A stretch of DNA of 64,000 nt from Tribonema minus (taxonomy: Eukaryota > Sar > Xanthophyceae > Tribonematales > Tribonemataceae): positions 248,001 through 312,000 of the forward strand of contig JAFCMP010000434.1 of the NCBI GenBank assembly GCA_017506865.1, read 5' to 3'. The notes under the pieces were generated by a model that was not told the DNA's origin, searched no databases, and worked only from the letters and a program-made list of their open reading frames with translations. Position 1 is the stretch's first letter, and every line of letters starts with the position of its first letter. The position numbers were made by a program, and so were the translations under genes. Positions 1-44,756 of the stretch are shown here, one piece after another.

Positions 1-464
1 AGGGGGGGCAGTGTTGAGGGGGAAGGGGTGCTGACAACGGCCACACGGGGGGGGGGGGGGGGGGGGGAGGGGGAGGGGGGATGATGGCAGCAAGGGGGAG
101 AGGGGTGGTTGGTCCTGATGACAGCCGCATTCTTTGCGCTGAGTGAGGGATTCGTTGGGGCAGCACACAGCAGCGCTTGACATGTGCACAAATTGGCGGG
201 GCCTCAGTGAGATGAATTGCAGATGAGCCGCAGATGTACTGCGCTGTAGTACACTGCTGGTGTGGACGACGAAGACAAACTGAGATTTGAGCCTTTTTGT
301 TTGAAAAAAGACAAACTTCAACTGCTGGTTGAGCAGTGCGCCGCACCTCAAATTCTTGTCCGGGTTGAACCGCTGATGCACTGCACTGTACATGCTGTTG
401 TGGACGACAAAGGCAAGACTGAGGACGACCTTCTACAAGTAGATGAACTTCAACTGCGCCGTAC
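1..464. other. Intron sequence and poly-G tract
   Basis: This stretch lies 3' of the phosphatase exon 465-670 in the minus sense. It begins with a G run at about 47-79. Around 340-370 there is a degraded copy of the donor edge of that exon (GCGCCGCACCTCA followed by TTCTTGTCCGGGTTG, compared with the real edge at 458-490). No credible coding exon was seen. Confidence 0.5.
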
Positions 465-3463
465 CTCAGCGTTCTCGTCCGGGTTGGTGATGATGGTCAC
501 GCGCCCGTGACCCGCCCCCAGCAGACCGCGCAGCAGCGCCGCCGCCGACGCCAGCGTCCGCGTGTAGTCAGTGCTCCGCACATAGAGCCCCCCCCCGTGC
601 CCCCCCGTCACCTGGCTCAGCAGGTGACCGTATGCCGTCCGCAGCGCGTCGCCCAGGCGGAAGTGCTGCCTGCAAGGAGGCGGCGGGGCGCGAGTGAACG
701 AGTCGAGTGAATGAGTCAAAGCTGTGCGGTTCAACAAGTAGCACTGGGTTCCACGTGCAGAGCCTTCCCCCACTTGCCATCATCCCCTCCACCCCCCGGA
801 GGCCACCAACTCCTCCCGCCCCCCCAACAATGACCGCAGGCTGCTGCCGCCTTCAGAGCCTCCCCCACATGAAAGCGCACTTTTGGGTGTTGTTGTGTGC
901 ATTGGCTCTGTCCCCACACATGCACACCTGACCTGAAGCGGCTCTGCAAGTTCAGCAGACTGCCGCGGAAGTTCAGTGAACACATTCGCGGCAGCCCTTC
1001 TCTGTGAGCGGCTTCGAGTGCACGTTCCTCACGGCGGCGTCCTCTCCTGCAGCGCCGCAGACACTTCACCATGCCCCATACCCGCACGCCCGACTAGAAT
1101 TGGCTCTTCCCCTGTGCGAGGTCTGCTGTATGCATGTGACTCTCCATAGCCCCTTTCTCCATGACCTGCCCCCGCGTGCACAACCATCCCCGGCGCGCCC
1201 CCCCCCCCCCCCGCCCTCCCCTCCCCCTCCCCCCCTTCAGCAGCGCCGCACCCGTGACCATACACGCACGCATGCCTGGATCTACGCTTCTGCTCTCGAG
1301 CAGTTGGCTCTGGCAGAGTCACCCCCCAAAAACAAAGAGTCCAGCCACTCACCGTAGCCCCTTCTCCGTGAGCTGCCCGGGGGCGCATGCCCCCCGCGGC
1401 GGCGCGCGCTCCCGCTCCCCCCCCCCCCTTCCCCTCCAGCAGCACAGCAGACAATAATCTACTTTACACGCATGCCTGGATTGGTGCTGCTGCTTTGGCA
1501 GATTCCCCCCCAAAAAAAACACAGAGCCCCCACTCACCGTAGCCCCTTCTCCGTCAGCTGCCCGGGGGCGCACGCCCCCCTTGGCGGCGCGCTTTCCCCC
1601 TGCCTCCCCCCCATCCCCTCCAGCAGCGCGGGCCGCAGCGAGCGCTCCAGCGGCTGGCCGTCCACCCCCACTACGCCAATGTTGCGCTCCACCTCTGACC
1701 AGACGCTCTGCGGGCGGGAGGGGGCGCGGAAGTGGCGGGCGGCGCGCATGACCGTCAGGGGACGGTGTGAGGAGCGTGGTCTTGTATAGTTGAAGTTGTG
1801 GAAGGCGCTCGTGCCATTGGAGGATGCTAGGAGTAGGGTAGTGAAACGCAAGGAACTGGTTTTGCAGTTGCTTGTACGCAGAAATGCCAGCGCCGTACAG
1901 AAGGCATATTCAACAGCTGCTTTGGGAACAGCTGCTTCGACTGCACTGCGGAGGTGACGTCACCGCAAGCAGTGATGCGCCTGACTTTGACCAGCGTTCG
2001 ACTTTGCGGGAGGACGCAATTCAACATTCGGCTCGTAGGGCAGGCAGTGCCACTGCACACGGGGTTTGTGTTGTCCCGCATGAGCCTCCAACCAGTACTT
2101 CAACTTCAACTTGAAGGCGGCCAACCTTGACATCTGGCACAAAGTGTTGGCAGTGCGACATCTGATTTTACTAACAGGTCAGCTATCAAGGTTACACACA
2201 TCAACATCTGGCGCGTGGGGCAGGCAGTGCCAGCACGCAGCGTCCGCGTCCACATTGGAGTGTACCACAAAATGCCCAACAAATACTTCAACTTCAACAG
2301 CAACGCACCTCGACATCTGGCGCGCAGGGCAGGCAGTGCCAGTGCGCAGCGTCTGCGTCCGGGATGAAGTGTATTACAATGCCCAGTTCAACAAGTATTT
2401 CAACTTCAAAGGGGGACGCACCTCAACATCTGGCGCGTAGGGCAAGCAGTGCCAGTACGCAGCGTCCGCATCCGGGATGGAGTGTATCGCGGAGCGATCG
2501 CCGTGGCGGATCGTGAGCTGCACCTGCCGCAGCTCCAGGCCTTCAACCTGCAGCGTGTGGTTAAGGTTACGGTAAGTCCACGTATGACATGAAGGAAGGC
2601 GTTGCGAGCTCCTGGCCATCGAACTGCAGCGGCCGCGCGCGCAGTCACGCAATGCGTGCACTCATGAGGGAGGGCGGCGCGTGCGCACCCATGAGGAAAG
2701 GCGCGTGCATGCTGCGCATGACCAGCTACAGCCGGTCTTCGCAGCCTACTTCAACTTGCACCACTACTTCAACTTGCACCGCTCATCGCGTGACGCACTC
2801 TTCAACTTGCACTTGCGCCGCTCCAGGCCTTCAACCTGCTGCATAGGTTAGGGCGAGTCCACGTGTGACATGGGGGAAGGCGTTGGAGCTCCGGGCGATC
2901 GACCCGTGGCGGCCACACGCGCAGCGGTGCGCGCAAATTGCAGCCATACTTCAACTCAGGGCCGTGCGCACGGGCAAGAGGGTGGCTGTGCGCGCTGCGC
3001 AGGGCAAGCTCGACTTGCGCTAGACGCGCAGCCGCCGCACCAGGCGAGGCTGCCGCTCTCACAGCAGGTACGAGGCCCCCCCCCCTCCCCCCCCCCGCCC
3101 CCTCTCTCCTGCAACCCCGCACCCGCACTCCAACATGGCACCCAAGCCTCTGTAGAAGTACGTACCTTCGGCAACGACACCCCGCCCTCCCCCGCCCCCA
3201 CCTCCGCGTCGCAGTACCCCACGCTCCCCTCCTCCACGCGGCGCGGCGCCGGCGACAGCGGGGGGATCACCCAGGGGGGGGGGTCCGCAGCAGCGCTCAG
3301 CGCCGGTGAGCGCTGCTGCTCTGCTGCGAAGCGCGGCACAAAGCGGTAGCTGCTGCGGTAGCCGAGCGCGGCGAGCGCGCAGCAGCAGCAGAGTGCGCCG
3401 CAGCCGGCGGCGATGCGGCGCCGCGCGGCGGGGCGGAAGCCGCGCTTGGCACGGCTCAGGTCC
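465..3463 (-). CDS. Histidine acid phosphatase, 2-phosphoxylose phosphatase-like (3' end off window)
   Basis: Exons on the minus strand, read right to left. Exon 3166-3463 (acceptor after 3464, donor GTACGT) encodes a basic stretch, a hydrophobic Cys/Ala-rich anchor (about GCGALCCCCALAALGY) and a linker: a type II Golgi-like anchor. Exon 2422-2547 encodes LRQVQLTIRHGDRSAIHSIP, the catalytic RHGxR motif in the context known from 2-phosphoxylose phosphatase (PXYLP1/ACPL2). An exon ending at 1538 (start uncertain, about 1780-1850) ends in PGQLTEKGLR. Exon 465-670 continues in exact phase (CG + G gives Arg) as QHFRLGDALRTAYGHLL and LYVRSTDYTRTLASAAALL, the family's second conserved block. The C-terminal catalytic His-Asp lies off the window. 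An exon between 2547 and 3166 (about 2850-3060) is likely but unresolved. The family removes a 2-phosphate from xylose during glycosaminoglycan linker synthesis; the algal substrate is unknown. Family call is firm, subfamily less so. Confidence 0.8.
1141..1620 (-). repeat. Three tandem copies of a phosphatase exon end
   Basis: The 3' end of the exon that encodes APGQLTEKGLR, with its GTGAG donor, occurs at 1533-1585, again almost intact at about 1347-1400, and in a degraded form at about 1150-1185. Spacing is about 190 bases. The second copy keeps frame, sequence and donor, so it could be spliced as an alternative exon end. Confidence 0.75.
2010..2470 (-). repeat. Serial copies of the donor edge of the RHGDR exon
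   Basis: The real exon edge (2415-2470) reads on the plus strand as CTCAACATCTGGCGCG then a GGGCA-GCAGTGCCAG block. Copies begin near 2303, 2194 and 2012, with a weaker one near 2125. They sit in the downstream intron and are separated by TTCAACTTCAACTT-type spacers. Confidence 0.75.
2540..2900 (-). repeat. Duplicated acceptor edge of the RHGDR exon
   Basis: The plus-strand block GCTCCAGGCCTTCAACCTGC and the following 70 bases (a CCACGTNTGACATG block, then GGAGCTCC) occur at 2531-2620 and again at 2819-2905. The second copy lies upstream in the minus sense, inside the preceding intron. Confidence 0.7.
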
Positions 3464-3680
3464 CTGGTATTGAAGGATAGTAGAGTGAGTAGGGGGGGGG
3501 GGCAGGGCTTGGGCTAAGGTTAGGTGGGGCGGAAGACACGCTTGGCACGGCTCAGGTCCCTGTTTGGGGGGGTTACTGGGCGGTAAGAGAGTGAGTAGGA
3601 GGGGTGGGGCTCGGGTTAGGGTTAGGATTAGGGTTTAGTAGGGCGGAAGCCGCGCTTGGCACGGCTCCTGAGGGTGGGGG
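3445..3680 (-). repeat. Three copies of the acceptor edge of the anchor exon
   Basis: GGGCGGAAGCCGCGCTTGGC with ACGGCTC occurs at the start of the real exon (about 3431-3465), at about 3528-3565 and at about 3647-3672. TTAGGG-like runs separate the copies (3500-3525 and 3605-3640). Confidence 0.75.
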
Positions 3681-3719
3681 TATCAGGGGGTAACACAGTG
3701 AGTAGGAATCGGGAAGTGC

Positions 3720-4457
3720 TTGAGGATGGTGTGGTGTGGGTTGCGATGCGATGTGCACGTCGGGCTGTACCTGCATGCCATGGGGTCTATTGTCACGTGC
3801 GTCGGGCAGCAAATATTAAGCATGCTGCTGGAATTGATCGTCCCAATTTCAGGATGTTTCGAAGCGCGTGCTGCGGAGCGCCTCGCAGCAGCAATGCGGC
3901 AAGTGCAAGCCACCGCTCATGATAATGTACTGGCTTGCGCCGTAGCAGGGACCGCAGCTGTGCCACCACCATGGGCGAGGCAAGTGCACACGCTAGAAAG
4001 CATGTCAGAGACTGCGGCCCGCATCGTGGCTTGCCTGCTGAGCATTCTCATGAACATCATAAGGACTGCACCGGTTGGAAGCCATACACCCACCAACATG
4101 GTAAGGACACGTAGGCAAGTCTGCATACCTGTTGTAGGGTACCGCACCTCCCTCAACATCCAGGCCCTCCGCTCCCTCAACCGGCAGCTCATTCATTCTG
4201 TGCAGGAAAAGTGCAAGCGGGGCCACACTGTAAGGCAATCTGCAGCGTTGGCTGATGCCCTACTTGCACTTGTAGCTGAGACGCGATGCATGGCAGTTGA
4301 GACAGCTCCAAAGAAACGCGCAGTTCAATTTTTTGGGAATAGTGCATTAGGCGCATGGTCTTTCTTGTGTGGTGCTTCGCTCATGATGCAGATTTTCAAC
4401 AGCATCAGCAACTTGAACAAAGAGCATGGTGAATTGCGCACTGCCGTGCGTACGTAA
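3720..4457 (+). CDS. Unidentified 245-aa open frame
   Basis: An uninterrupted frame of 245 codons lies between the phosphatase exons and the acylphosphatase gene. I recognise no family. The composition is ordinary, with a hydrophobic stretch near residues 95-112 and another near 210-225. It may be part of the upstream region of the phosphatase gene on the other strand, or chance. In a GC-rich genome a frame of this length is weak evidence on its own. Confidence 0.2.
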   Translation: MRMVWCGLRCDVHVGLYLHAMGSIVTCVGQQILSMLLELIVPISGCFEARAAERLAAAMRQVQATAHDNVLACAVAGTAAVPPPWARQVHTLESMSETAARIVACLLSILMNIIRTAPVGSHTPTNMVRTRRQVCIPVVGYRTSLNIQALRSLNRQLIHSVQEKCKRGHTVRQSAALADALLALVAETRCMAVETAPKKRAVQFFGNSALGAWSFLCGASLMMQIFNSISNLNKEHGELRTAVRT

Positions 4458-5136: not shown

Positions 5137-8100
5137 ATGAGTATCATGAGGAGCATTGCATTGTGTCTGGTGGTGGCCATCGCCCTGCTGCAGCTGGCAG
5201 CGGCCTTTCTTGCGCCACAACCGCGACAGCTGGCGGCGCAGAGAGCATGCTGCACAGCCAGCAGACGGCATGTTGAACCTCTGAGGGCGGGTGGGGAGGA
5301 GGATGACGACGACGCTGGCGCCATGGCGGAGGCCAAAATAGTGGTTTCGGGGCAGGTGAGAGGATAGCTGCTTCCTCACCTTTTTGCCACATCAAACCTG
5401 TTGCAAGCATCTATTTCTTCTCCGTGAAGCTTCGGGAATGCAAAAGTCAACCTCCGCTGGGGCAGCGTTAGTGGCCAACGCCTGTCTTTGGCGAAAGTTA
5501 GATGGTTGTGAATCATGCCATTAGTACCGTGGTAGGTTGCAGCAACGCAGCATGTGCGCTCGATGTGTGGGTCCTGCTAAATCTTGCATGCACGCAGCGT
5601 GGGTAGAAAACTCTGGATCTTTATGCCCCTGCCTCGTGTTTCATGGTACCGGCTAAATCGTTCATTACAGTTGATGACATCCATGCAAGCCGAAGTATTT
5701 GGCTACAACTCGCCTGTGCCAGCGGTGTGCGCAGCAGGATACGCCACTCATCCGTCAAGTGCGGTCGTCACCAGTTGCAAGCACAGCAACAGCCACTCCA
5801 ACCTGAGCCTGAGCTGGGCCTTGCACTATAGTCACAATAACCATGGAGCCACGTGTGATGGTACTGCAGATCCCTACGTTTCTACAGGTAGAAACTTTTG
5901 CACTTGGCCCAATTGCTTTAAATGCGGTGTTTCACTGCCAAGCAGCAACCACCGAGGCCCTAACTGAAACACCACACCAGAACACGCTGCACTTTCTTGA
6001 TGAGCCATGTTAGGCGCGCATGCAGTCTGCCTGGCTGAAATGCAGGGTTTTTCCAACATCGGTTCTTTTTCAACATCAGTTCTTTAGGGCATCTCTCAGA
6101 CTTGTGGAGTGTCAATGTCAGTCCAGCACGGTGAATGCCAGTGGTGGGGTCCTGCGCCGATCACACTATGTGCCAACTTTGGTGCCGCTAATGTGCAGCC
6201 ATGCACCACGGCAAACGCACTCGTGATGGCTTCATTGGTGCCATCCTCGTGTGTTCAGCCATTGCTGTGCGGGGCGGCATGCCAGCAGCGTCGGACGACG
6301 CTGCTCAGAACTGTTCCTTCGCCGTGCGCTTCTAGTAGAAGCCTTCTACCGCAATTGAAATTGCTAGATTTGTGGCATTATCACGCGTCACCTCTGAAAT
6401 TTCGTCGGTATGCTGCTGCGTCCGCTCACCGTGTGGGGTAGCCCCCTGACATGCGGCCGGCTACTTTCGGCCGCACGCGCGGAACATGAATTTTGTCACG
6501 CACGGTACCCGTGCGGCTTTGTTGCCATGCTGCTCCGTCTGACAATCAAATATGCGCCATCCCATGCCCCGCATGGTCGTTCTCCCGCAGGCATACGGCG
6601 GCTACTTCCGCGCGCACGCACGAACCATGCATCCCGTCACGCGGCGTGTGTGCATCTCAGTTGCAATGCTATCCGTTCGCTCATCGCATGCGCGCCATCC
6701 CATGCCCCACATTGTCACGTGTCCCCAGGCATACGGCGGCTACTTCCGCGCGCACGCGCGCAACGAGGCGCACTACATGCGGCGGCTGTCCGGCGCGCTG
6801 CAGGAGTACCCGGACAGGACGGAGATTATCGTGGAGGGAAAGAGGAGTGCGATTGACAGCTTTGTGAGGTGGTGCCGGAAGGGGCCAGGGCTGAGCCAGC
6901 AGATCTCCACCGTCGAGGTGACGTTCTCGGAGCACACCGGGATCTTCGATGGGTGAGTCTTGTGTGTTTGGCGCATGCTCAATGTTGGAGTTGAAATTGC
7001 GGAGCGCTCTGTGAATGAGGTGGAGTTAATAGGGCCGGGGCTGAGCCAGCAGATCTCCACCGTCGAGGTGACGTTTTCGGAGCACACCGGGATCTTCGAT
7101 GGGTGAGTCTTGTGTTTGGCGGATGCTCAATGTTGAAGTTGAAGTTGCGGACCGCGCTGTGCATGTTTGTCAGGTGGAATCATCGAGTTTTCAAGTGGAT
7201 CTTCGGTGGGGGAGTCTTGTGTTTGGCGGACTGCTCAATTTGAAGTTGCACTTGCGATTCTGAGTGGAGGTCATCAGGAGGGGAAGAGAGCTGCCGTCAA
7301 CATGTTGAAGAGATGGTGTTGGAAGGGGCAGGGGCTGAGCCAGCAGATCTCCAATGGCGAAGTGACATTTTCAAATCATACCGGTATACTTAATGAGTCT
7401 TGTTTGGTGGCACAGAGGCTCAATTTTGAAGTTGCACTTGTGGAGCGCACTCGGGAACTATCTGGTTAGAGATGTTGAGGCTGCTGAACATGTTGGCAAA
7501 GCGGACGTCAAGCTCAAATCCATCATCAAAACAGGTACAGATGCACGTGGTGTGTGCACAGGGTGTTGGGTTAGGTTAGGTTAGGGTCAGGGTCAAGGTT
7601 TGAGTTATGGAGGCCCCCTAACCCTAAGTTGAACATGGATAACTCTCGCCAATTTCAACGGTATCGCACACTAACATTCAAATCAGGTTTGCTGGCACTC
7701 TCACGTTGAGATGCCATGTGTGCATAGCACATCAAGGTGTTCTATCATGTTCATAAGTCTGCTGGCGCCATGTTGAGTCTGGTAGTGTGGGGAAGTTGAA
7801 GACGGACATCAAGTTAAAGTTGAACATCATAGAGACCATCGATGATTACGGCACATTGGTGGGCATTCCGTTATTGCGCTTTGCAAAGGCTGGCTGCTGC
7901 AGACTCTGTAACATCAATCAATTGCCGTGAGCGAGAAGGACTCACTTTGAGAATGTGCCGTGTCAAAACAAGTGACTCTGCTTACTGCTAGTTTAAGTAG
8001 TGTACTGGAGTATCGCAATAGAGCTCAGGTTCAGTTGTGAAAGCACGGCACATCTGCGGTGGTAAACTGTAGCATGCACTCGAACAAATAGTAAAATTGC

Positions 8101-12712: not shown

Positions 12713-15700
12713 TCAGACGGCCGGCGCGCGCTCCTCCGGCGCGAGTTCGTGGCCGCCAGCAAATTTGGGGCCGGCGACGGCGCCCTCTGTGGGGCCCCTC
12801 TCGACGCCGGTGACGGGGGCGGCGCCGGGGGCGGCGCCGCGCGCCTCGCGGTGCTGCAGCAGCGCTCAGCGGCAATGGACGAGTCAGTGATCAGCAGTGA
12901 TGCTGACAGTTATCTATGAGAGCAGTGCGACGATGGCAATGCGGAGCAGAGAGACACGTGCTGACAGGTTGGGTCGTGGTGGTGTCTTGGGTATCGTTCA
13001 GCTTGCGCGCGGGCTCGCGGTGCTGCAGCAGCGCTCAAGCCAATCGTCAACGCGCAGCACGGTCAGCATCAACAGTGTTGCTGAGCATTACAGCGATGAA
13101 AATGGGGGCTGCAGAGGGGCAGTGGCGGGCGCTGACAGGTTGCGTCGTGGTGGTGTCTGCACGACGCCTGCTCTCGCGCGCGTAATTGCAGTACAGCAGC
13201 AGCAGCAGCGTGCCGTCGACTTACGCACGTGATCGGCATCAGCATTGCCGAGCATTGCAGCGATGGCGGCAGGGCTGGAGAGGGGGCAGCAGTGCAAATA
13301 CGAGGATTGTGGCAGTGTCTGCGAGACGCGTGCATACGTGGTGCCACTGCTGCAGCAGCGCTCAGTCGACAATCGCACGCTCCGATCAGTGCGGCACGGC
13401 AGCAGCGCAATGAAATCGCACTGATGTGAATATATACATGAATGCGGTGACTGATACAAGTGATTGTGAATATATGTAGTTCCTCTGGGATTCAGAGCAG
13501 CTCCACTCTCCTCCTTTGTCAAGCGAGCAGGGAAACCCTGTGCGCGACAACAGGGCAGATAGAAAGGCAGTGGCGGTGCTGTTTCGACAGTCACAGTTGC
13601 ATCGGCAAGACCCCCTTTCGGAGCTGTCGGCGGGCAGTGCAGCACGTTGCGTTGCAGCAGTGCTCAGTACAGAAGTGAGGCGCATAAGCGTCTGTGGGCA
13701 TAGGCAGATGCTGCAAGGGGAAGGGAGGGACGTGCAGGGTTAACGTTAGAACAGGGTTAAAGTCAGGCTAGGGTTAGGGTTAGGCGCGGCTGTCTCGACT
13801 CATAGTGGATGGGCAAGCACGTGGGCGCGGTGCCGCACTTGAAGTTAGAGTTAGCGTGAGGTTGAGCTTAGGGTTGGGTGCGGGTCAGGGGTGTTAGACC
13901 TACTGCACTCATACATACATGCCCTCTGGCATCCAGGTGAAGATATAGGTGGAGATGCAGGCGCCAGTGTCACCCTGGTGTCCCCTGCACTGCGCACGCG
14001 TGCAGAATCACACACTCTAACCCTAACCCTATCCCCGAGCGAAGAACGAACCTTGACATAGGGCAGACTTTGAGAATCCTGACGCTCGTATTACTGCGCA
14101 CGTTGTGCGAGTATTCAAGTTGCTGATGCAAGCATCGAACTTGTTCAAGCCCTACAAAGCATGCGCCAGGAAACGGGCGCCAGGCTGATGGCAGAACGTG
14201 AGAAATCAGCGAAATGGCGGCAACCGCACCTCCTGAGACGCCTTACTCTTTGCCAATCTCAACCTCACACAAACCGTAATTCTACTCGCTGACCTACTCA
14301 CTTACTCACTTGTCCTAACTACCGGCGGCGTCACTTCAAGATGGCGTATACCTTGAAGAGGCCCAGGTTGAGGAGGTACATGAGCATGGTGAAGCCGGCG
14401 ATGATGTCGAGCGCGGCTATTGTCTTGAACTGCTTCACGCGATTGCTGGGTCCGCTGAAGCCGCGGTCGATGGCCTTGCAGGCAAAGCCGAAGGCCAGCA
14501 TGATCTGGCAACGCACGCGACGGTGGAAATACGGCAGAGGCACACAGGGGGGTTTGAGGTTGCAACGGAGAGTCGCAGGAGGGCGAGAGAATAGGGAAAC
14601 GACGCAGGCCAAGCAGCCCAGAAATGGTGCATAAATGCAATACTTATGAATGAATATGTGCGATACTTCGAAGTACATGTATGCAATATTTTCACACTAC
14701 TTCTGGAACATTGAACAACAGGAGGCATGGGCCACGAAGTTACAAAGCGCACACTGCCGCACGGCATCAGGAAAACACATGTACTTACCTGCCCACAGAA
14801 TGCTGAGCGCTGAGTCATCGCGGTGCATACATACCGTATCCACACAAAAGCTGAGCGCTGAGCAAGCGCCGTGTGAGCAGACGACACTTGCCGGCTTCGA
14901 CAGACGTTTGCGCGCGGCGGTATGCGCGCCGCTCGCAGAGGAAGCGAGCGTCACTGGCAGCAACTTCAACAACTGACTGCCGATGCACTGGGGCCTTGGA
15001 ACCCCCATTTGTAACCCCCCTTGAACATGTGCCGCCGTCATTGCTGCGGACGCCAGGCTAACTTGTTACATGACACCATACTTGTACTTCAACAGCTGGG
15101 TTCGATGCTAGCCCTTGGGTTGCGATTAGGGTAACCACGGGGTAGGGTTAGCGTCAGGCATACGTACCAGGGCGAAGGCGACGAGGTTGGAGCCAAGCGA
15201 CGAGTAGCCCTACTTTCTTACCCTAGCCTGATGCTAACCCTTGGGCTAGGGTTAAAATCAGGAATACGTACCAGGGCGTAGGCAACGAGGTTGGAGCCCA
15301 GTTCTAACCCTTACCCTACCCTAATGCTAATCCTAGCTTGATTCTAGCCCTAAGGCAGGGTTACGGTCAGGCATACGTACCAGGGCGAAGGCGACGAGGT
15401 TGGATCCCAGCGACGAGTAGCGCGACTCCTCATTCCACGAGCCGCCGTGCACGGCGGCCATGATCATGCTCGCCAGGCCCACGGAGGCAGCGAGCAGCGT
15501 GAAGAACACTGTCACAATGTTAATGGGGTCCGCAAACAGAATTGTGTCCTGCACGAGAGGGCAGCGGCGATGCATGATGTGAGCGACGGTGCAACAGTGT
15601 GATTGATGGCGTGTGGGGGGGGGGGGGGGGGGGTCGAAGATTTAATTGCGCCGGCAGCACATTGTAGCATGCTCGCAGCTCTTCTCTGATTGAAAGAGAT

Positions 15701-18885: not shown

Positions 18886-20480
18886 ATGGCAGAGCTTCTG
18901 GAAAATGTGCTCATGCTTTGCTGCAGGCAGGGCCTGCTGCCAAAGCCGGGCTGGGCCCTCAGCAGGCACCTGCGCTCCAATCTACAGCCATCGGCAGCCG
19001 TGAAGATCGTAGCGGAGCAGCTGGGTGCTGAGGATGCCGCCCCCGTCCTTCTCGCCACCACGCACATCAAGTTGGTGGCGCTGACCCTGGAGGGCAACTT
19101 TGAGGATTTCCACCTGCCACATGTGCCCACCACTCTCACAAGCCTTCACGTGGAGCGATTCTTAACCAGGTATTGATTAGGCACAAACCTACCAAGCCTG
19201 CGCAAGCTCGTCGTGCTGGCCGGCTCCGACCCCTCGCCCCCTTCGGCACACCCCTGGTGGAGACTTGGCCCGACGACGAGTCCCACGCGTACCTGGCCGT
19301 GGCACAGGCTATCATCAGCACCACCCCACCCACAGTCCGGGAGCTGCGGACGGATGTGCCTCTGGCTCGGTTCACACCCGCCTCGCTGCGGCGTCTGAGC
19401 GGCCTGCGCTCGCTGCGACTGGACAACGTCAACATGGCCATCAACGGCGAGCCTCGCCAGTTTGCCGACCTCCCCGCGCTTCGCGGCTGCATGGCGCTGC
19501 CGCCGGCGCTAGAGAGTCTGCACCTCAAATGTTACGTCATGGATGGCTCGGAGCCGCTGCTGCGCGCCCTGCCGGCCACCCTCTCCTCTCTGCAGCTAAG
19601 CTGGTGCAGGTTCTACGCCACACCAAGTGGCGGCGGCGGTGGCGGCAGTGGCGGTGGCGGTGGCAGCAGCGTGTTCCGCCTGCCGCCGCTGCCCGAGGGC
19701 CTGACCAGCCTGACCATCGACCCCATGATACCAGCGGTTGGGGTTAGCGTCGACGTCACAGCGGCGCCGCTGCCGCCTTCACTGACCTACCTGCACCTGG
19801 CTAACGACCACGGGCCTGTCGTGCTGCAACAGCTACCTCAGCGACTGCGCCAGCTCGTCCTGTTCTGCACCGAGCTGACATATACGCTCCCATCGCCGCT
19901 GCCGCCAGCGCTGCTCGACCTCAACCTGGACCTGCAAGACTACGAGCACGCACTGCCACCACTGCCGCCCGCGCTGGTCAAGCTGCAGCTGTGGAACGCC
20001 GACCGGCCGCTGCCGGCGCTCCCGCCGACGCTGCTCCACCTGGCGCTGAACAGGTGTCAGCATGCTGCGCCCGCGCTGCTGCCGCCGGCGCTGACGCACC
20101 TCTCGCTGCACCAGTGCCGCCGCGGCGACGGCGCCGTGATCGAAGCGCTGCCGGACACGCTCACCACGCTCGAGCTGTCCTACAACTACCAGCAGGTGCT
20201 GCGCCTCCGCAGCCTGCCGCCCGCCCTGGAGGTGCTCAAGTGGCTGGAGCACGGCGCGGGCGATGGCGGCGGCAGCGACGCGCCAACGCCCGTGCTGCCG
20301 CCGCTGCGCGCGCTGCCGCGGCTGCGCGAGCTGCGCGTGGGCAACGTGGCCTTTGCGGCGGGCGACGCGCTGCGCGCATCGGCGCTGCGGCACGTGCGCT
20401 TGGACGACCCAGTGACGGCGCTGCCGCCGCTGGACGGGCCCGCGCACGTGTTGCTGAAGGCGGAGGGTTGCACGCTTTGA
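18886..20480 (+). CDS. Leucine-rich repeat protein with disturbed frame near its start
   Basis: From 18886 a frame with LRR-like content (LTSLHVERFLT) runs to a TGA at 19174-19176. The same frame reopens as LPSLRKLVVLAGSD (about 19190-19230), and from about 19250 the coding continues one frame over to the stop at 20478-20480. The main part has at least ten irregular LRRs of the form LPPxLxxLxLxxC (for example LPPTLLHLALNRCQ, LPDTLTTLELSYNY) with a Gly/Ser-rich insert at about 19630-19672. Removing 27 bases with GT...AG ends (about 19170-19196) would join LT to SLRKL in phase, a possible micro-intron; the later shift stays unexplained. Cytosolic or secreted cannot be told; no signal peptide is seen. 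Confidence 0.6.
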
Positions 20481-22046: not shown

Positions 22047-25000
22047 TTAGCCTGCGGGGCTGAGGCCGTCGTTATTAGTGGGCCAGTGCGCGTCAGCACT
22101 GCCGCGGTGCGGCGGGTGCGCCATGGGCCTGTAGCGGCTGACCCAGGCGTCCTTGGTGTAGAACATGGGGTCACCGAGGCGGAACGCGGCGCGCGTGTTG
22201 CTCATGTAGTACACGCAGGCCCCTGTATGGGGTAAATTGTGCAGGTGGGGGTAGGAGGGGGGGGGGGGGGGGAGATGTCAAATTTCGCCTGCGCACTTAC
22301 ACGATGCTGGCACTTGTACGTAGTCAACTACAGTAGCCAATTTCATGGCTGTTGAATTGTGCACAGCGTTGGCGGTGAGGTCGCGGCACGGCTGCGAGAC
22401 TTGATGCAAACATGTTCTTCCCAATGGCGAGTACTGAGTGAGCTTGTCACATTCGATGCACGTTGCAAGCTCGCTGTGATATTTATCGCTGCGCACAGTG
22501 GGTTTTGTGGTCAGACAGGGAAGCCTCCTGTGGTAGCATCAACGACTTCAGAACGATTGCATTCTTTCAAGAAGCATACTCACAAGAGACTGCCCTCGGT
22601 ACATGATTCTTCGTGTGCACTTGGATGCGTCATGTATAGTAGCTGCGGGTAGCAGGTGTTCCACGGTGAAGCGGCACAGGCACTGCCTGTCCAAAGTTGA
22701 CGCGACAACAGCTCGCCAAGGGCGCACGCGTTTGGTGCACGTGTGGTACACGTTAGGTCAGGGTTAGGGTCGGTTAGGGTTAGGGTCAGACGTAGCACCT
22801 GCGACCGTACACAGTTGACGCGACAACGCCTCGCCGAGGCGGAATGCGGCACGCGTTTGCTGCAAGTGTGGTACCACATTAGGGTCAGTGTTAGGTTTAG
22901 AGTTAGGGTTAGGGTTAGGTGCAAGTGTAGTACCACACACTGGACAGGAGGCATCCGCAGACAGGGGCGGCAAAGATGCAGTTAGATAAGCTGTTACATA
23001 GGCCACCTTCGTGCATACAGTGCAGCTGCACTTGTTGCGCGCCGAGCGTGGATCGGCGTGCGCGCACATATGTGCATACATGCTAGTACAACGTGCGCAT
23101 GGGCCTCGGGAGTGGGGGCGCAGGCTGTACACAGGAAGACAGGGGTCATATGCGATGCTGAGAGACCAGCTATCGCGACCGAAGCCTTGACACAGCATCG
23201 CACATGTGCCTGGGGAGATTATGGGTGCTGCATGTAACGCCATGCCGGCGTATGGCTGCTGCTGTTCGCTGCAAAAGCGGGCTGCTGGCGATCGCGCGCA
23301 GTGCAGACTGTGCATGCGCGCGAGGGGCGCCTCCGCCTCTGAACAGAAGGATGTTGAAACACAGACACTTGACGCTGCAGAGCGAGATCGCCTGTGAACA
23401 GCTTGTACGCTGCATGTGACAGCATGCTGGCGCATGGCTGCCAATGGCCTACACATGCCCAAGGCAGCTCGCACTGTGCGAACAGGGTTAGGGTTAGGGC
23501 TAGGTTTAGCTTTCAGATGGGGAGCCCAGCACGCTCATGTGCGGTACAGGCAGCAGGCAGCGCGTACGGCTCGTCTGCGGGCGACAGCGCACGGCGGTCC
23601 CCCATGCGTGCGTCACTACAGCTGAAGTGTTTTTGTCTGCTTCAAAGTAATGTTTGAAGGTTGCGCGGCGCGTGCCGTCCGTCGGCATCACAGTCTACAA
23701 AATGCAGAACCTGTTGCGCGTCCACGTACTTCAAGCACATCACATATGCGTTCCTTTTTGTTAGCAAAAATAATCTGCTAGTGCTGTCATAGTTGAACTT
23801 TGCTTCCTCTTTGACCTGCCTGCCATACTTAAATTTTGCATCCCTCTTTGAAGCTTTCTGCGCTCACCGAGCTTGTGCATGATCGAAAACGCCATGTACG
23901 CTCCGCTGTCCCACGGATCCCACGCCACGCCGCCGCCGCCGCCGCCGCTGCCGCCTGCGCCGCCGCCGCCGCTCGTGCCGATGAGCTTCGCCAGCCTGTA
24001 GCCATACAGCAGCGCCGTCGCCGTGATGTAGGCGCCGTTTACAGCGTACACCCACTTGTAGTGCACCGCCACGAGTCCCATGAGGCCCGCCTTGAACGGC
24101 CACGTGTCAAACATCATGATGAACAGCGTGAGCAGCACGGCGACCTGCACGAGCAGCTGCACGCCGTGGACGAGGACGAGGATGGTGTCGACGTCGTCGC
24201 CGCCGCCGTCGAGCGTGAGCTGCGAGTACGAGTCGTACTCCACGCTGCCGTTCAGCAGCACGTCCGCCAGCATGAGCAGCATGAGCACCGTCAGCTTGGC
24301 CTGGAACCAGGCGTCGGCGCCGCCCTTGGCGCGCTTTTTCCTGCAGGAGGGGCGCAGGGCAGGTGGCCAACCACACCAGTACAAAACATCAGGTTGTGCG
24401 CAATAGGTGTAACTGTCACTGGCTGCTGTTGATCATTACGGAGGCGGGGTTGGGTGCGGAGCAGGTGGCCAAACCACACCAGTACAGTCATCACGATTGT
24501 ATGCCGCTAGAGCACACAAGAGCAGCTGCGAGAGGGGGCTGAGCGCGTGCATTTTCTTGTGAGTAATGCGTGAACAGCCTACTGAGAGGTAACCCACGCA
24601 CTTTGGAGCTGCACCTACTGACCTGCATTCATTCCACCAAAGTTATCTTTGGTGGTATGCAGTGGCCATGTGTCATGTGTTGCATTTCAGGCTCCTGTTC
24701 CACAAGACCGCATATGATAGTGCTGGTCATATATATGAAGGCGCTGATTGTAGTGGAATGATTGCTTCAATACAGCCAACAAAACTTGCTTCCTTGTGTC
24801 ATTGGCTGCTGCTGATCTCCATGGAGGCCGTGTCATTGGTGGCGGTTTGTGCTCTGACGAGCAGGTTGTTTGATTTTCCTGCTATTGCGATAATTGGTGG
24901 CCTCTGGCACTGCACTCTCGCGGTGAATCAACTTTCGAACAGATCCAGCATACCATCTGCGTCAAACTCGCCCTGCAATACCCTGATCGTGCAGAAGCGG

Positions 25001-28659: not shown

Positions 28660-31600
28660 TCAGAACCCAGCCCGTGCAAGCTTCCGCAGCGCCCCCTTCT
28701 TTCTGCTGTGGTTGCCCACGGCCGCCTTACGCTGATCCTTCCGCCGCTTCGCCAGCCAATCCGGTGCCACATTGCGCGCTGCCTCCGCCCCCCCGCTGCC
28801 GCCGCCCCCGCCCCCCACACCACCATCACGACTGCCGCCACCGCCGCCGCCAGCAGCACTATCACCCGGGGCAGCAGCAGCGGCGGCGGCAGCGGCACCG
28901 CCGCCGCGGCCCCTGCCCCCCGCCCCCTTTCTCCCCCCTCTCTGCGCCCCCTGCTGCTGCTGGTGCTGCCGTGGCGGCTGCTGCAACCGCTGCTGCTGCT
29001 GCTGCTGCTGCTGCTGCCTGGCGTGTGGTTGCTGAGTCGTGCTGCGCGCGCCGCCATCGCTCTCGTCGCCGCTTTCGTCGCCATCGTCGTCGTCATATTC
29101 GTCGCTGCCGTCGTTGTCGCCATTGCCGCGGCGCGTCGATTGCGGCGGCGCAAACTGCCTGTACACGATTGATCACAGCGCGTGCGCACAAAGATAGTCA
29201 GCACTGCACCTTTTCAAAACCGTCGCATCATGCGACCTTGCCAAGCCCGCCTACGCATGTCTACAACTGCCCGCATGGCAAGATGTGCCTGAGACCGCGC
29301 GTAGTTTGCACGTGTACAACAAACATACCTTGACACACTTCAACCTATACCTGGAAACAGCGGGCGAATATATGTGCAGCAGTGCTTAGCGTGAGCGATC
29401 CTGCGTGTCATCTATGATGGGGCATGTGGAGTCTGCACCAGAGGGTGCTGTCCAGAAAACATTGCCATGTGATGATGCACTTGAAGCGTATATGCATACG
29501 TACCTATTGGTGCTCCGCGCAATACTCTACAACCATACACTGCCAAGCGCCAGAGCCAATTCGGGCCATAATGTTGTACATGTATACATACATGCCTGTT
29601 GGTAGAGCGCGCGCCCGCCCAGAACATGATGTGCTTGAAACGCATCCGATACATGAAGTGTATGCGATGCATACATACTCTGAAGTACGTAATTATTGGT
29701 GTTGCGCGCGCCCGCCCAGAAGCGCTCATCTTCCTCCTCCTCACACGCGGTTGCCTTGTACTTGAAGTTTAAACCATATATGAAGTGAATACGATACATA
29801 CATACCTATTGGTGTTGCGCGCGCCCGCCCAGAAGCGCTCATCTTCCTCCTCCTCACGATACACGCGGTTGTAGCGCCGCGTTGCCTCCAGGTCCGCCAG
29901 CGGCGCGCCCATGCCGACGCCCCCCGTCCCTCCCACTCCCGGCTGCACGTTGTCGTACTGGTCGTCGTAGTCGTCTTCGTACTCACGCGCCTCCCTGCGC
30001 ACGCGCACGTGAAACAAACGGGTGATTTACTGAGTGTGAGGAACAGGGCATTGGGTTGCATCAAGTGCGTGGAACATGCTTTCCTTCAATTCTTGTTTGG
30101 GGCACGAAGAAGCCCACATGGTGGATGTCAAGCTTGCAACCAGAATCCACATTGCATGTTTTGGCAACATGAGCTTTGTAGGCACCACTGTAGTGGCAAC
30201 GCTGCCGGGGGACGCTGCTGTACGACTGCTGATAGGATCATTGCAGTCGTCCTAGTACTCGTACGCCTCACCTGAGCACTGCCCTCTTCTTTCGCAGCGC
30301 CTCGCGCTCTACCTACCTACGTACCCTAGTCCAAATACCTACCCTACTCCAGATATCTCTCCCACCTGAGCACCGCCCTCTCATCCAGCAGCGCCTCGCG
30401 CTACACCTACTATAGCTCTAGCCCTAGCCCCACATCACCTGAGCACTGCCCTCTCGTCGAGCAGCGCCTCGCGCTCCTGCCGCGCCGCCTGCGCCTTGAC
30501 CACACTGGTCTGTGCTGACAATCCTAGCGCTAGCCATGGCTCTAGCCCTAGCCCTAGCCCTAACCCCATCTCACCTGAGCACTGCCTTCTCGTCCAGCAG
30601 CGCCTTGCCCTCTACCTACCTACCTACCCTAGTCCAGATACCTACCCTACACCCTAGCCCTAGCCCTAGCCCCACCTGAGCACTGCCCTCTCGTCCAGCA
30701 GCGCCTCGCGCTCCTGCCGCTTTGCCTGCGCCTTGACCACGGCCGCTGTCTCCGCGTCCACGCTGTAGCCGCGCTCGTTGGCGCGGCTCTTGCCCTTCCA
30801 CGCGCGCCGCAGCGTTTGTGGAACGTTCCGCAGCTGCGGCGGCAGGTCTTCCGGGCCGCCCGCTAGCGCCGACGCCACCACCTGCGCCGTGTACGAAGTG
30901 ATTTGTTGCTACTGAGTGTTGCTGTATTGTGCTTTGCAGAGTATGAGGGCTTGTGCTTATTGACCTTTGTTTGAGAATTCGTTGGTATCTATCTGAAAAC
31001 AGCTATTGGTGGATGCACAAAAGACCAACAGCAGCTGCAGCGGCAGGGCTTTCGGGCCGCCCGTCAGCGCCGACGCCACCACCTGCGCCGTGTACAAAGT
31101 TTTTTGGTATTACTAAGCGTTGCTGTATTGTGCGTGGCAGAGCACAGTGAGTTGGTGCGTGTTTGCCTTCGTTTGAGTATTCATTGGCGTTCATCTGAAA
31201 AGAGCTGACGATGCATGCACAAAAGACCGATGCCGCCGCCTGCGCCGCGTACGGGCGTGTTGACGGCGAGCACTGGTGCTATCAGTGGTGTTCATCCGAA
31301 CAGAGCGACTTTGATCCACGCATGAAATACCAACGTCAGACAGCATTGACTCGAGCAACCACGCTCGTACGAGTGCAGTGCTACTGAGCGCTGCCGTATT
31401 GCGCTGTGCGGAGGCGCTGCCGGCGTGGTTGCGGCGGGCAGCGCACGCGTGCATGCGCCCCCGCATGCATATGCACGTGCAGGGCGCTGAGCGTTGCTGC
31501 TCATTGTGCTGCGACGGCACTCAACGTGGCCTGCACCCCATCAGCCGTGTGTGCCTTAAAAAAGCGCCCATAGCGGCGGGCGCGCGAGCGGGGGGGGGCT

Positions 31601-34600
31601 GCGGCGGCGCACGACAGGCGTGCTTCGCTGCACAGACGTGACCCGCACCCATTGGTCACATGTGCGGACAAGGACCCCATGGCGGGGGGGGGGGGGGAGG
31701 GGAGGGCCAGAGTGTGCTGACCCTGACGAGCAGCTCTGGCAGCTTCTGCCGGCTTCTGATCGGAATTTGGAAATACATATAGGGAGGTGCTGCAGGTGAC
31801 AGCGTCTAGAGGTCTTCAACCGCTCACCCCAACCCTGATGCTAACCTTGACCCCAACCTAATCAAAAGTTGCAACCAGATCTGCATTACGGTCCCCGTGC
31901 CGAAAGTACAAATAATCAGTGACCTGCACATGCCCATGGTATTATGATGCGGATTACTGCTGAATCGAAAAATTTGATGCATGAGCTATTCAGCATGCAT
32001 TGCGAAGGTATACGGCAAGAGTTCAAGTTGTACTTCAAAGCTGAAGTTGACTTTTCACCTGCGGTGACCAACCCATGACACACGTTTCTAACTTGAAGGT
32101 GCCCGGCCCATGAGACACCCCACCCATGAGACACCTTTGCAAGTTCTAAGTGAAGTTGCACTTCAACTTTGACCGGCACATGGGACAGTTACTGCTGACA
32201 ACTGTGTAACTGCCGAGCACCCTGCAAGGCAGCTAAACTAACTCATAGAATGACAAGGAGCATTGCAAGCAAGATGCGCACTCCCCACATGGTTGAAGTT
32301 TTCGTATTGAGGTTCTTGTCGCCAGCGTTTGCCATGCTGTGCTGCTCACAGCCCTCCTGCAACCTGGCGCACCGACAGCTTTGTAGACGCGTGTGCTGTA
32401 TACATACCGTATACATACCGCATGCAGGCGAGGAGGCGCAGCGGCAGCGCCGCGTGGTGGGCGAGGCCCTGCATCGAGTCGGGCATCGACGCCCGCGGCC
32501 TGGCGGAGCGGCACTACGAGAACTCGCGGGACCCTCAGGTCGTCAAGGACATGCAGGCCATCACTGCCGCGCTGAAGCGGGCAGGCGCCGCGGACTGCAG
32601 CGTTGGCGCAGCTCTTGATGGCATCCAAGGCAAGGTGGACGTCCAGGTGGACTTCCGCCTCTTGACCAGGTCGTCCACCTCTTGACCAGGTGGACGTCCA
32701 CCTCGCCTTGGATGCCATCAAGAGCTGCGCCGACGCTGCAGTCCGCGGCGCCTGCCCGCTTCAGCGCCGCAGTGATGGCCTGCATGCCCTTGACGACCTG
32801 AGGGTCCTGCGAGTTCTCGTTGTGACGCTCCGCCATTTTTCTAGCTGCAAGGTGACCGAAGCTTGGTAAAGGTGAAGTTGCTGTTGAAGTTTCACATGCG
32901 GTGACCAGCCTGTGAGACACGTTCTAGCTTGAAGGTGAATTTTACAATGAAGTTTAGCCTGCGGTGACCAGCCTATGAGACTTGTTTGAAAGTGCCCAGC
33001 CCATGAGACACCTGGCCTCATGAGACCACATTTGTAAGTTCAAGGTGAAGTTTAACATGAAGTTTCACCTGCGGTGACCAGCCCATGAGCGACAGGCACG
33101 CCTCCACGAAGCCCTCCCCAACGCCCCCCTCCTGCTCCGGCCCGCCGAACACCTCCTGCACCTCCGCTATCTGAGCGGTGCCACGCAAGTCAAGAAGAGT
33201 CAGTGCTCCGCAGTTACACGCGAACTGGCATGCCGCCGCAGATGTACAGGCGTGCATGAGCCACTTACGCGCGACCACATTGAGGAACCATGCACCCGCC
33301 AATACACGCTGGCATATGCATGGGTGAAGTCGCCTTCTGCTGTCAACTTCATGTCTGGTTTATGCTTGAATTTGAAGTTTTGCGGACCAGCGGCGAAGGG
33401 TGGCTCGGGTGGTGCACACACTGGTGACTTCTGACTCATGACTCATGACTCGACTTGTTACTTGTCGCGTGAGCGCACACCACGACAATGGAAAAGCTTT
33501 GAAGGTCATGTCAGCGCTGCGAGCGAATCACTACTTCAACTTGCTGTAAAGGTGCGTCCTCGTGACGCGATTGCGCCATTGCAAGTTGTAAGTGGCGACT
33601 TCAGGCGTGTCAGGCGACTCGCTTACGGACCAAACCGGCGGCGGCGGTCAACGCATCGCACTGGCCCACGTGTGCTTGTTACAATGGTATACCTCACTAA
33701 AACGGTAATGGTGCTAACATAGCCATGCAAACGCTGTAACAATCTATGCTGCAGTGTGTTCAGCACCGCCAACTCCGTGGCTGCCAGTGCGTCAGTGCCC
33801 GGCGCCTACCTCAGCAGCACAGTGGCAGTCCTCGCATACTTATGCCAACACCATTGCGATCGCCGCTGCACTGTGTGCGGCACTGCCAACTCATTATGGC
33901 GGCCATTGTCTCTGGGTCCATTGCCTACTTCATCAACACGGTGTCAGTCCTCGCATACTTGTACGATTGACGCTGCAGATTGTGCGGCACCGCCAACTCA
34001 CCATAGCGGCAAGTGTGTCAGCGTCCGGCGCCTGGCCCGGCAGCAGCGGCTGCCGCGGCTGTCCCGCAGCGGCGGCAGCAGTAGCAGCAGCAGTGCTCAA
34101 ACCTGCTGCAGCAGCGCTCGACGACGGCGTGCCGCGAGCTCGTGCAGAGGGCTTGGTGCAGGACGCTTCTAGCTTCGGCAACCCCTCAATGACCTGTAAA
34201 TAAGGGAGCGGCAACTACCAGGTGTTGGTATCAGGTGTTGGTATCAGACTTGATCCCTCCTGTTTCGGCTGCAGTTGAAGTTGAAGTCGTAGAGGAATCT
34301 GTCTACATTTGCTGCCATCATATAGCAGCATAGAGGCAAGGCGGAGGCAAGGCGCTGCTGGCAAGAAGACTTCCAGATCTAAAGACTTGAAGTTTTGGCA
34401 GCCCTTGCATCACCTGCAAATAATGTAGTGATCACCTCTGGATTTAGGACTGGTTCCTGAATATTCTAGTTTGCATGCGTCAGAATACGCTGCAACAGAT
34501 GAGCGCAGGCAAGCTTGCACCGATTTGCAGCAGTGCTTCTCAAGAGCCGGCTGTGCTGCTGAGGCACGCGCGTTGAGCACGGCGACACAGACACGCAGTG

Positions 34601-40440: not shown

Positions 40441-40443
40441 GTC

Positions 40444-40870: not shown

Positions 40871-40882
40871 AACGACAACCAC

Positions 40883-41653: not shown

Positions 41654-42369
41654 GGATGCAATGACTCAAGCAGGTGACTGATCTTTATGTGTACACTTCT
41701 AAAATGGTGACCATTTCCGCCCTAGCAGGCTGCTTTTGTTAAAGTCGAATACCACCAAAGAGACAGAAGTCCAGGTTTGTTGTGATGGCAGCTTGTGATG
41801 TTGCAACCAATGCGACAACAACAAGAAAACTGATGCGATGACTGCAAATGAAAACAACAGGCAGCTTGCTTCGCAGCCACTCAGCGTCCTCTCATGGTAG
41901 ACAGAGCCCCTCCCCCCCCCCCCCCAACCATCACAGCTCTTACAGGTGTAGAGAGGGGACCCCCCCCCCACAACGAGACCACCAAAAAAACTGTACCGCC
42001 AGCATCATGACCACATGTACCCGGATCCAGAGCATTGTATGCAGGCCAGTGTTTATAGTATCACAAGACTTCACGCATGTATGCACACCTTCAATGGTGC
42101 ACACCCGCCTGTGTGTCAGCCCAATGCTTCTGCGCGTAGACCCTGCACCGCGTTTATTCTTCAACTTGAGGCAGGACGAGCCGAGAGAATAGCTCTGTTC
42201 TGAGACTAGACCCCTGCTCTTCTGCTGCATAGATACCGCTCCGCTGTTCGCCACAGAGTCATTCACCACTTCCCCGAGCACCAGTGACGCAGCACCACAC
42301 CACGGCTACTGCCGGAGATCTATACCTCGCCTCTCAACCACTCGCGCAGCTTTCAACGCCTGCAGTAAC
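41654..42369. other. Intergenic, upstream of AWPM-19 copy B
   Basis: C runs at 41912-41925 and 41961-41968. No gene seen; the last 100-150 bases are probably promoter and 5' leader of the gene starting at 42370. Confidence 0.4.
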
Positions 42370-44756
42370 ATGGCTCGCCACGGCACCACCACTACCGGCA
42401 GCACCGGACACAGCGCGGGCAACAAGATGGCTACCGCAGCTGCTTTGCCATGGATCCTGCTCAACATGCTGATCTTCTGCGTGCTGATCGGCTTGGCCAG
42501 CAACCTGATCAACTCTTATTTCAACTCGGCAGGGGTAAGTGCCGCAGGATTCCGAATTGTCCTGGCTTCGTTCTGCACAGTGTTCCTTGCTGAAGCAGTA
42601 TGTTGTGCGTCAGTGCGTATACTTAAGTGTTGCGTCAAAGATGGAGTTCGAGGCTGACGTAGCCGTCAGCATATCCATTCACGTTTGCGACAGGCGCGCC
42701 AGGATCGGTGCGGTTGCAGTTACATAAAACTTTCATAGGTCGGCACATGCTTTGACAGCCATACTTGATGCTATACACTGCTGTGTGCACCCGAGTTGGC
42801 ATTGTACATCACATTCCAGACTTGTCATATTTCAGTTCCCAGCAGATTTATGTTTTCCTGGCTTTACACCCTCGTTGGCCGCTGTAGCCAGCACTGATTT
42901 CTTGAGTCATTTCTTCATGGCATGCTCAACGTATCAGCGAACGCTGCATCCATATTCCAGTCTGAAGTGCAGCACGCTTGTACCGCAGTCACTAATTCTC
43001 ATGCTGCCATTGCTGCCCCTTGTCTACAGACCCTGCGCATTTTGGACGACCCCATCAACGTCGTGCTCGTCCTCTTCACGCTGCTCTCCTCGAGCGTGGG
43101 ACTCGCGACCATGATCATGGCGCTCGTGCACGGCGGCAAGAGCCGTGACAGTGGCGCGAAGTTCTCCTCACTCTCTTCCAACCTGATCACGTTCGCGCTG
43201 GTAAGTCACCTTTGCGGCTTCAACTTCGCAATGTGTTGTTGAAGTTGGTTGCTGGCTGACAGCCTTTGGATCAGTATGGTGTTTTATGCAACTGTGTCGC
43301 GACAGCGGCACAGAGTTCTCTCCACTGTGCTCCAGCCTGATCACTTTCGCGCTCGTGAGCTACTTGCACCTGTCAAGGATCGGCCTGCAAATTTTGCACA
43401 CAGAAGTCTTTTTTGTCTACTGTGGTCATGGTGGCACTGTTAGACTCGTGGCCGATGACTGCAGCAGCGGCGACCACGGTTTTTGGTGGAAGGCACTTGC
43501 GGCTAACCATCCCTTGTCACCTAGAGCTCAACGATCTTTTAAATTCGTTATTAATTATCATTCACACTCTCAGTACCTGAGATCGGTTCCACTAATTCTG
43601 AGTTGGATGTGGTTTATGGTTTTTGTTTGAAAAACGCTACAGCTCTCAATTTTGAAACTGCCATGCATTGTTCTTGCGCAATACAATCTTTGGCAAGATT
43701 CTTTGCAAACTTTCTTGGACAAGACCAATCAAATGTGCACTGGTTTCATGCTAGTGAAAGCTGAACTCAAGTGGAAGCCCCCAGTCCTGTGGCACGTCTT
43801 GTTGGAAATGAATGAAAAGATCGTAGAGCTTTGTGTTGTGATATGCGTCATATCCACTCAGGATGAATCGTGAGCACAATACATCAAATACACAGCGCGT
43901 GGATTGCGGATTTGATGAGTGTGTTGAAGTATAAGGTAGATGGCAACGCCAAGTGTGCCAATGCTCAACGCTTTCTGCTCCAACTGGTGCTGCTGCGCAG
44001 GTCATGCTCTCCTTTGGATTCGCATGCAAGGCCATCAGCCGTAGCGTGCCGGGCGGCGAGAGCACCAACCTGGGCCGCCAGGTCACCGCCATCGCAGCGC
44101 TTGACATCATCGTGGGCGCAACGATGCTGGCATACCTCTTCACTCTGGGCCTCTTCAAGGTGAGATGACATGGAGGATGGCGCTTCAAACGGGATACGTG
44201 TATGATGCTGCTACTGCATATCAGTATACTTTGGCGAGCTTTGGTATAGAAATGAAGATTATTGCGCTGACTATGCCACATATGCAGGTCAATTACAGGT
44301 GCTTGTAGCACGCGTGCGTGCGACGCTGAGGGTGTGATAAGGATCAGCAGTGGTATAAGACACTTGTGCGGCTGAGAGGGAGGCAAATGGTATGTGGTTG
44401 TCCTCAGCAACCCCAAGAATGTTGTGTTGAAATAAGATGTTTTTTTTATATTTGGATCTGCTGTGATGATGGTGGCTTGATCATTAAGGTAAGAAAGTTT
44501 ATCCTTCGCGTGTGGCTCTTGTCTTCTGATGACATTACATAATCATGTATCAGCAACCTGTTTTGTTGGCCACTATGTTGGCGGGCCCCAGCCAATTTAC
44601 TCAAATTTAATCATGCTGATCACTGCTGCGCCACAGACCCACGACAACACCTACAACACAAACACCACGACCGGCGCCACCACCACTCACCCCGGTGATG
44701 TTGCCACTGGGCCCAAGATGATCGGTGGACATGAGGCGCGTGCTCCCGCTGTCTAA
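42370..44756 (+). CDS. AWPM-19-like (PM19L) four-helix membrane protein, copy B
   Basis: Four exons: 42370-42534, 43030-43200, 44001-44159, 44637-44756; 204 residues, all junctions phase 0 with GTAAGT, GTAAGT and GTGAGA donors. Helices: LPWILLNMLIFCVLIGLASN; NVVLVLFTLLSSSVGLATMI; the FALV...MLSFGFACKAIS block with the family-typical FGxACK; IAALDIIVGATMLAYLFTLG. The tail is Thr/Asn-rich and ends GPKMIGGHEARAPAV. Exon borders coincide with those of copy A at 12713-16303, so the pair arose by gene duplication after the introns were in place. The start is the first ATG of the frame. Probably a plasma-membrane protein; function in algae not known. Confidence 0.88.
43150..43365 (+). repeat. Copy of the donor edge of AWPM-19 copy B exon 2
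   Basis: The exon end (GACAGTGGCGCGAAGTTCTC through CTGATCACGTTCGCGCTG|GT, 43147-43202) is copied at about 43302-43358 with GT retained. Confidence 0.85.

Follow-up and report, generated by a model that had tools for sequence, protein, structure and literature searches.

The window, a 64,000-nucleotide stretch of the Tribonema minus genome (C434:248001-312000; 158-Mb assembly of 554 contigs), contains several intron-bearing genes in which the ends of exons recur inside the adjoining introns. A preliminary description of the sequence had listed 15 such exon borders, and four Pfam families were found among the genes that carry them, namely AWPM-19 (twice), histidine phosphatase and acylphosphatase; a TMEM138 match lies slightly below the Pfam cut-off (26.2 versus 27), and two predicted genes with exons at 28.7-30.9 kb and 32-38 kb gave no Pfam family match. 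Two AWPM-19-like genes (PF05512) are thereby recorded in a yellow-green alga. The window also holds a 458-aa open frame with FNIP repeats (19104-20480, plus strand), an 810-aa open frame with no Pfam match (60427-62859, minus strand) and a duplicated block of about 3.2 kb (52751-53860 and 55976-57085) with near-identical open frames of 268 aa (minus strand) and 343 aa (plus strand), the arrays of which (54710-55498 and 57935-58723) each contain four copies of a 197-bp unit.

Table 1 AWPM-19-like gene models and the 15 exon borders, with the exon-edge copies found on their intron side.
Feature	Position	Strand	Exons, copies and remarks	Best copy versus shuffle maximum
AWPM-19-like gene, PF05512	42370-44159	+	Exons 42370-42534, 43030-43200, 44001-44159, further exon beyond; annotated protein P0001	
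AWPM-19-like paralog, PF05512	14331-16303	-	Exons 16303-16172, 15548-15381, 14504-14331; coordinates read from sequence	
Donor, histidine phosphatase gene	1538	-	1331-1412, 1139-1198, 974-1047; GT in nearest only	61 vs 21
Donor, histidine phosphatase gene	2422	-	2290-2366, 2186-2251, 2009-2059; TRF array 2197-2488, period 113	55 vs 19
Acceptor, histidine phosphatase gene	2547	-	2785-2853, including AG	35 vs 20
Acceptor, histidine phosphatase gene	3463	-	3523-3562 (AG kept), 3641-3667 (exon part only, without AG)	34 vs 21
Acceptor, acylphosphatase gene	6729	+	6572-6646 (AG kept), 6443-6485	41 vs 17
Donor, acylphosphatase gene	6952	+	7043-7120 (77/80 identical, GT kept), 7337-7411, 7197-7227; TRF array 6882-7165, period 150	73 vs 16
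Acceptor, predicted exon, gene not named	12853	-	13006-13037, just 16 exon bases	27 vs 20
Donor, AWPM-19-like gene (PF05512)	15381	-	15148-15214, 15258-15301, GT in both; TRF array 15143-15421, period 104	55 vs 17
Acceptor	22222	-	22831-22874, exon bases 10-52 without splice site; weakest of 15	26 vs 18
Donor, predicted gene	29806	-	29686-29744, 29584-29624, 29492-29520	53 vs 19
Donor, same predicted gene as 30881	30676 (preliminary description), 30684 (gene finder)	-	Four: 30414-30498, 30550-30612, 30361-30402, 30251-30309	64 vs 22
Acceptor, same predicted gene as 30676/30684	30881	-	31031-31100, including AG	58 vs 20
Donor, predicted gene	33069	-	32941-32979, 32885-32916, 21 exon bases each	29 vs 19
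Donor, predicted exon	34002	-	33758-33834, 33875-33926	34 vs 18
Donor, AWPM-19-like gene	43200	+	One: 43298-43367, including GT, skipped in P0001	35 vs 16

To score each border, 60 exon bases and 20 intron bases were aligned to the 900 further bases on the intron side and to 200 dinucleotide shuffles, giving 16 rows for 15 borders (30676 was run also as 30684). In every row the best copy exceeded the maximum of the 200 shuffles, and each border has one to four copies with 66-100% identity over the aligned part (Table 1). The exon-edge copies of the preliminary description are therefore real at all 15 borders, and its statement that the copied edge includes the splice site needs correction at the acceptor 22222 and for the second copy of 3463, with the copy at 12853 reduced to a short exon stretch. 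In the AWPM-19-like gene on the plus strand, splicing from 42534 to 43030 and from 43200 to 44001 matches the annotated T. minus protein P0001, which skips the intron copy. The same homologous donor carries copied exon edges in both AWPM-19-like genes, and the copies of each paralog are closer to its own exon than to that of the other, so the two sets of copies originated independently.

We extended the analysis to a sample of 257,065 bases, comprising the window, 13 stretches of 10 kb, one of 3 kb and one 60 kb block, using a purpose-written gene finder trained on this same sample. Its borders coincide with 14 of the 15 listed coordinates, two of the 14 (15381 and 43200) having been members of its first training set; the exception is 30676, placed at 30684. 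The gene finder itself miscalled copies as exons, and other gene finders will likewise take exon-edge copies for exons. We therefore took 34 of the 218 retained exons to be duplicates of a longer exon next to them and dropped them, a removal of decoys that underlies the main figures, may itself favour border copies and eliminated at least one exon listed in the preliminary description (34002); it left 106 introns of 300-4000 bp at 24 loci. A looser filter, which dropped 105 exons and included genes picked for their copies, was discarded.

At a score cut-off of 20, copies are present at 40 of the 106 donors (0.377, interval 0.25-0.53 over 24 loci) and 30 of the 106 acceptors (0.283, 0.18-0.41 over 24 loci), and 56 of the 106 introns have a copy at either border. 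With the window left out, the counts are 30/84 donors, 24/84 acceptors and 41/84 introns at either border, and the match rate in a control with reversed target sequence, at score 18, is at most 0.03. In the window, 20 donors and 20 acceptors were scored, of which 11 and 5, respectively, have a copy at score 18, a tally that excludes 3463, 6729, 6952 and 34002 as gene ends or as exons dropped by the filters. The number of copies per border in the sample reaches seven at donors and eight at acceptors. Introns are longer where one of their borders has a copy (median 876 versus 560 bp, P = 0.008), longer introns also giving more room for copies. By eye, from profile coordinates, further edge copies were seen in two other CCT genes (contigs C51 and C135) and in two kinesins (C511 and C246), and none was noticed at 131 kinase matches. 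Thus, border copying is common in the sample yet far from universal, and the earlier statement that most or nearly every border shows it was too strong (16/40 scored borders in the window, the sample donors and acceptors as above).

We regard as probable an explanation in which tandem duplication is frequent, blind to exons, and tolerated across splice sites since the exon-proximal site stays in use. Segments of about 100-350 bp would be duplicated frequently irrespective of exons; copies wholly within coding exons would mostly be lost, and intron-internal copies would be neutral. Copies straddling a splice site would be nearly neutral because splicing keeps the original exon-proximal site, that is, the first donor or the last acceptor. 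Each such straddling duplication would add to the length of the intron and deposit in it a spare exon edge whose splice site decays neutrally, and, the exon being held constant, duplications at borders would stay recognizable for longer than those internal to introns. For the duplication itself we infer slippage, unequal exchange or fill-in of staggered breaks as the chemistry, and we likewise infer that living cells choose the exon-proximal site. Counting against exon-blind duplication are the donor excess at the strictest cut-off, copies that do not abut, the repeat coverage of exons, the third-position excess and the retention of AG, each described below.

The share of bases lying in local direct repeats is 24% in introns, 17% between genes and 22% in predicted exons, the last value coming near the intron level in part because copies had been called exons. 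At score 20, windows in the intron interior contain a copy at rates of 0.19 and 0.17, and the ratio of border to interior is 2.04 (1.44-2.82) for donors and 1.65 (1.16-2.35) for acceptors (bootstrap over 24 loci); at score 24, the ratios are 2.48 (1.60-3.49) and 1.96 (1.26-2.70). When duplications were simulated with breakpoints at random and the first copy's exonic part was allowed only 28% of the neutral rate of change, the ratio came to 1.53-2.13. The observed enrichment overlaps the simulation and is thus expected without any targeting of borders, so that the special status earlier given to borders does not follow from ratios of about 2.0 and 1.65 set against a simulated 1.5-2.1. An absence of enrichment at borders, named beforehand as the finding that would speak against the reading, was not observed either: some enrichment is present, and at the strictest cut-off (score 26, intron-level bootstrap) donors reach 2.94 (2.08-4.37), above the simulated ratio. 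Moreover, copies with at least 85% identity cover 0.095 of donors versus 0.019 of the interior. Without decoy removal, copies were found at 13/43 donors versus 0.078 in the interior and at 6/53 acceptors versus 0.110, with no acceptor enrichment; position coverage was 0.296 at donors versus 0.132 in the interior and 0.133 at acceptors versus 0.151. The flat coverage of the first comparison and the donor-only enrichment of the uncleaned test were both set aside as distorted by copies called exons. Exon borders accordingly probably need no special targeting, with a possible bias towards donors.

Such a bias would be expected if donors attracted or promoted duplication, as might happen through breaks or stalled forks tied to co-transcriptional splicing. 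Donor copies lie above the interior at every cut-off and exceed the simulated ratio at the strictest one, and they outnumber acceptor copies (24/68 versus 13/68 exons, Fisher P = 0.053). However, the locus-bootstrap intervals include the simulated ratio, the donor ratio at score 20 falls to 1.75 (0.94-2.81) when the window and locus L011 are left out, and the same asymmetry would arise if acceptor copies, in which the wrong copy is first in line, were less well tolerated. We consider donor targeting unlikely.

The geometry of the copies bears on how they arose. Local matches across the sample are direct in 387 cases and inverted in 17, 15 of the latter from one small contig; likewise, 60-mers from the borders of 111 introns have direct matches at score 20 in 41 introns (donor) and 30 (acceptor), and inverted matches in 2 and 1. 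Among 68 exons, the end has a copy in the downstream intron of 24 but in the upstream intron of just one (Fisher P = 1.6e-7); the start has a copy in the upstream intron of 13 and in the downstream intron of one (Fisher P = 0.001). Measured against this opposite-intron control, the claim that copies always lie on the intron side holds. The copies are contiguous with the border: the match rate is 0.32 at the donor edge but drops to 0.06 once the 50-mer ends 60 bp into the exon, and exon positions at least 60 bp inside match at 0.02-0.09. The nearest copy has a median period of 186 bp and includes a median of 56.5 bp of exon at donors and 50.5 bp at acceptors. Mutually exclusive exons, in which a whole exon and both its splice sites are duplicated, were rejected as a reading, with the far edge found in the other intron just once in 68 each way and a copied part of about 50 bp.

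Of the 64 nearest copies, 16 abut or overlap the original, 4 are separated from it by gaps of 1-20 bases and 44 by more than 20 unmatched bases. The wide gaps would suit templated insertion during break repair, which would copy nearby sequence, exon edges included, into introns; in 23 of the 43 gapped copies examined, the remainder of the unit was located on the far side of an indel, against 6 in the reversed control. The excess of direct orientation and the near absence of copies from the exon interior and the far exon edge argue against this reading, which we judge very unlikely. Direct, contiguous and one-sided copies instead indicate tandem duplication across the border. The central proposal of the preliminary description, namely that tandem duplication has repeatedly spanned the splice site, making introns longer and leaving decoys in rows, is thus sustained by copies that are direct, contiguous and, at some borders, numerous.

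Under exon-blind tandem duplication, the copied sites would decay freely. Among donor copies aligned over the splice site, GT is kept in 77 of 96, against 74.9 expected from flank identity (z = 0.55), and among acceptor copies AG is kept in 51 of 57, against 45.2 expected (z = 1.94). Kept decoy donors have a median score of 5.39 versus 4.91 in real donors, and kept decoy acceptors score 4.47 versus 4.65 in real acceptors. By codon position (1, 2 and 3), exon and copy differ at rates of 0.117, 0.110 and 0.187 (donor) and 0.129, 0.111 and 0.160 (acceptor), a pattern that indicates a constrained exon and an unconstrained copy; copies with at least 85% identity show a third-position excess beyond a simple model (0.146 versus 0.075 and 0.053). 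Judged from sequence, the decoy sites look neutral yet as strong as real ones. The strength of surviving decoy donors, the third-position excess in similar copies and the many cores that are 86-96% identical beside unalignable neighbouring sequence would also be compatible with selection keeping the copies as regulatory decoys or alternative splice sites. Nevertheless, GT retention is no higher than flank identity predicts, codon positions 1 and 2 are free to change in the full set, and both annotated genes examined skip their copies, leaving selection a highly improbable cause.

The clearest case of exon-proximal site use appears, by annotation, to be CCT-gamma (contig C5), selected since its profile matches had already shown a copy. 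Its annotated protein of 546 aa corresponds to nine exons with 1638 spliced bases; copies lie at four of eight donors (3, 8, 3 and 1 matches) and two of eight acceptors (3 and 1), and the annotated protein contains none of them, every copy being skipped. Similarly, Hapterophycus and Phaeothamnion homologs show no extra residues when aligned to the joined exons of the phosphatase. It is conceivable, though we hold the idea only tentatively, that exon-proximal choice among equally strong sites is so reliable as to make duplication of a splice site almost neutral, with introns ratcheting upward as a result. Donor copies would then be tolerated better than acceptor copies, since transcription reaches the true donor before its copies and the true acceptor after them, and donors might also be hot spots of duplication. 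More broadly, the findings present intron growth by splice-site-spanning duplication as ongoing and common instead of a rare event, and the genome offers numerous natural examples of near-identical splice sites in competition within one intron at constant protein, so that the exon-proximal rule could be tested with RNA of a single alga. In laboratory experiments on splice-site duplication and cis-competition, Reed and Maniatis (in 1986) reportedly found that equal sites compete and that proximity and exon context decide. Unlike those constructs, the T. minus case is genomic and in housekeeping genes, with up to eight donor copies in one intron of CCT-gamma.

Related mutations have been described elsewhere. 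Intron gain through duplication of AGGT-containing sequence (Hellsten 2011; review, PMC3443670) shares with our case a short genic tandem duplication that adds splice sites and leaves the protein unchanged; in T. minus, by contrast, existing introns grow and exon interiors are not made into introns. The AGGT signature comprises an intron start resembling the next exon start and an intron end resembling the previous exon end; among 128 introns the respective counts were 0 and 1, as in the controls, and intron birth by this known route has thus left no sign here. The next exon starts with GT in 27 of 128 introns. In the potato RdRp gene (PMC4974935), an intron was gained through duplication across an intron-exon border, and a further 83-bp tandem duplication within an intron left the gene structure unchanged. 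That duplication likewise spans the acceptor and copies its signals, but it concerns one gene and one new intron, whereas in T. minus about half of the longer introns sampled are affected and the copies are skipped. Internal gene duplication is reportedly ubiquitous (Gao and Lynch 2009), partial duplications within genes being common in eukaryotes; relative to these, an excess in T. minus is an impression, with rates from T. minus alone. Introners (PMC9860276) also have sequence recurring at splice borders, whereas the T. minus copies are local and form no dispersed family. TTAGGG and TTGAAG, over-represented in noncoding DNA, are enriched 2.3-fold and 1.7-fold in the gaps between exon-edge copies, as a dispersed element might produce, yet the copies bear the exon edge of their own gene and the one unit searched against the genome (6882-7165) gave three matches, all in its own gene, so that an introner-like mobile intron or other dispersed element has next to no likelihood and was set aside. 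A literature search, with most subscription papers outside its reach, returned no report of the pattern in Tribonema. What is unusual, judged from T. minus alone, is how often this already known type of mutation occurs and that strong splice sites go ignored in whole rows.

Two minor observations concern the assembly. Kinase matches on the contigs C144, C223 and C278 score identically, so the assembly may have retained haplotype or duplicate contigs. The inspected parts of six contig ends contain no long telomere array; the most over-represented noncoding words in the window and the 257-kb sample are TTAGGG (30-65-fold), which we take to be telomere-like, and TTGAAG (8-23-fold).
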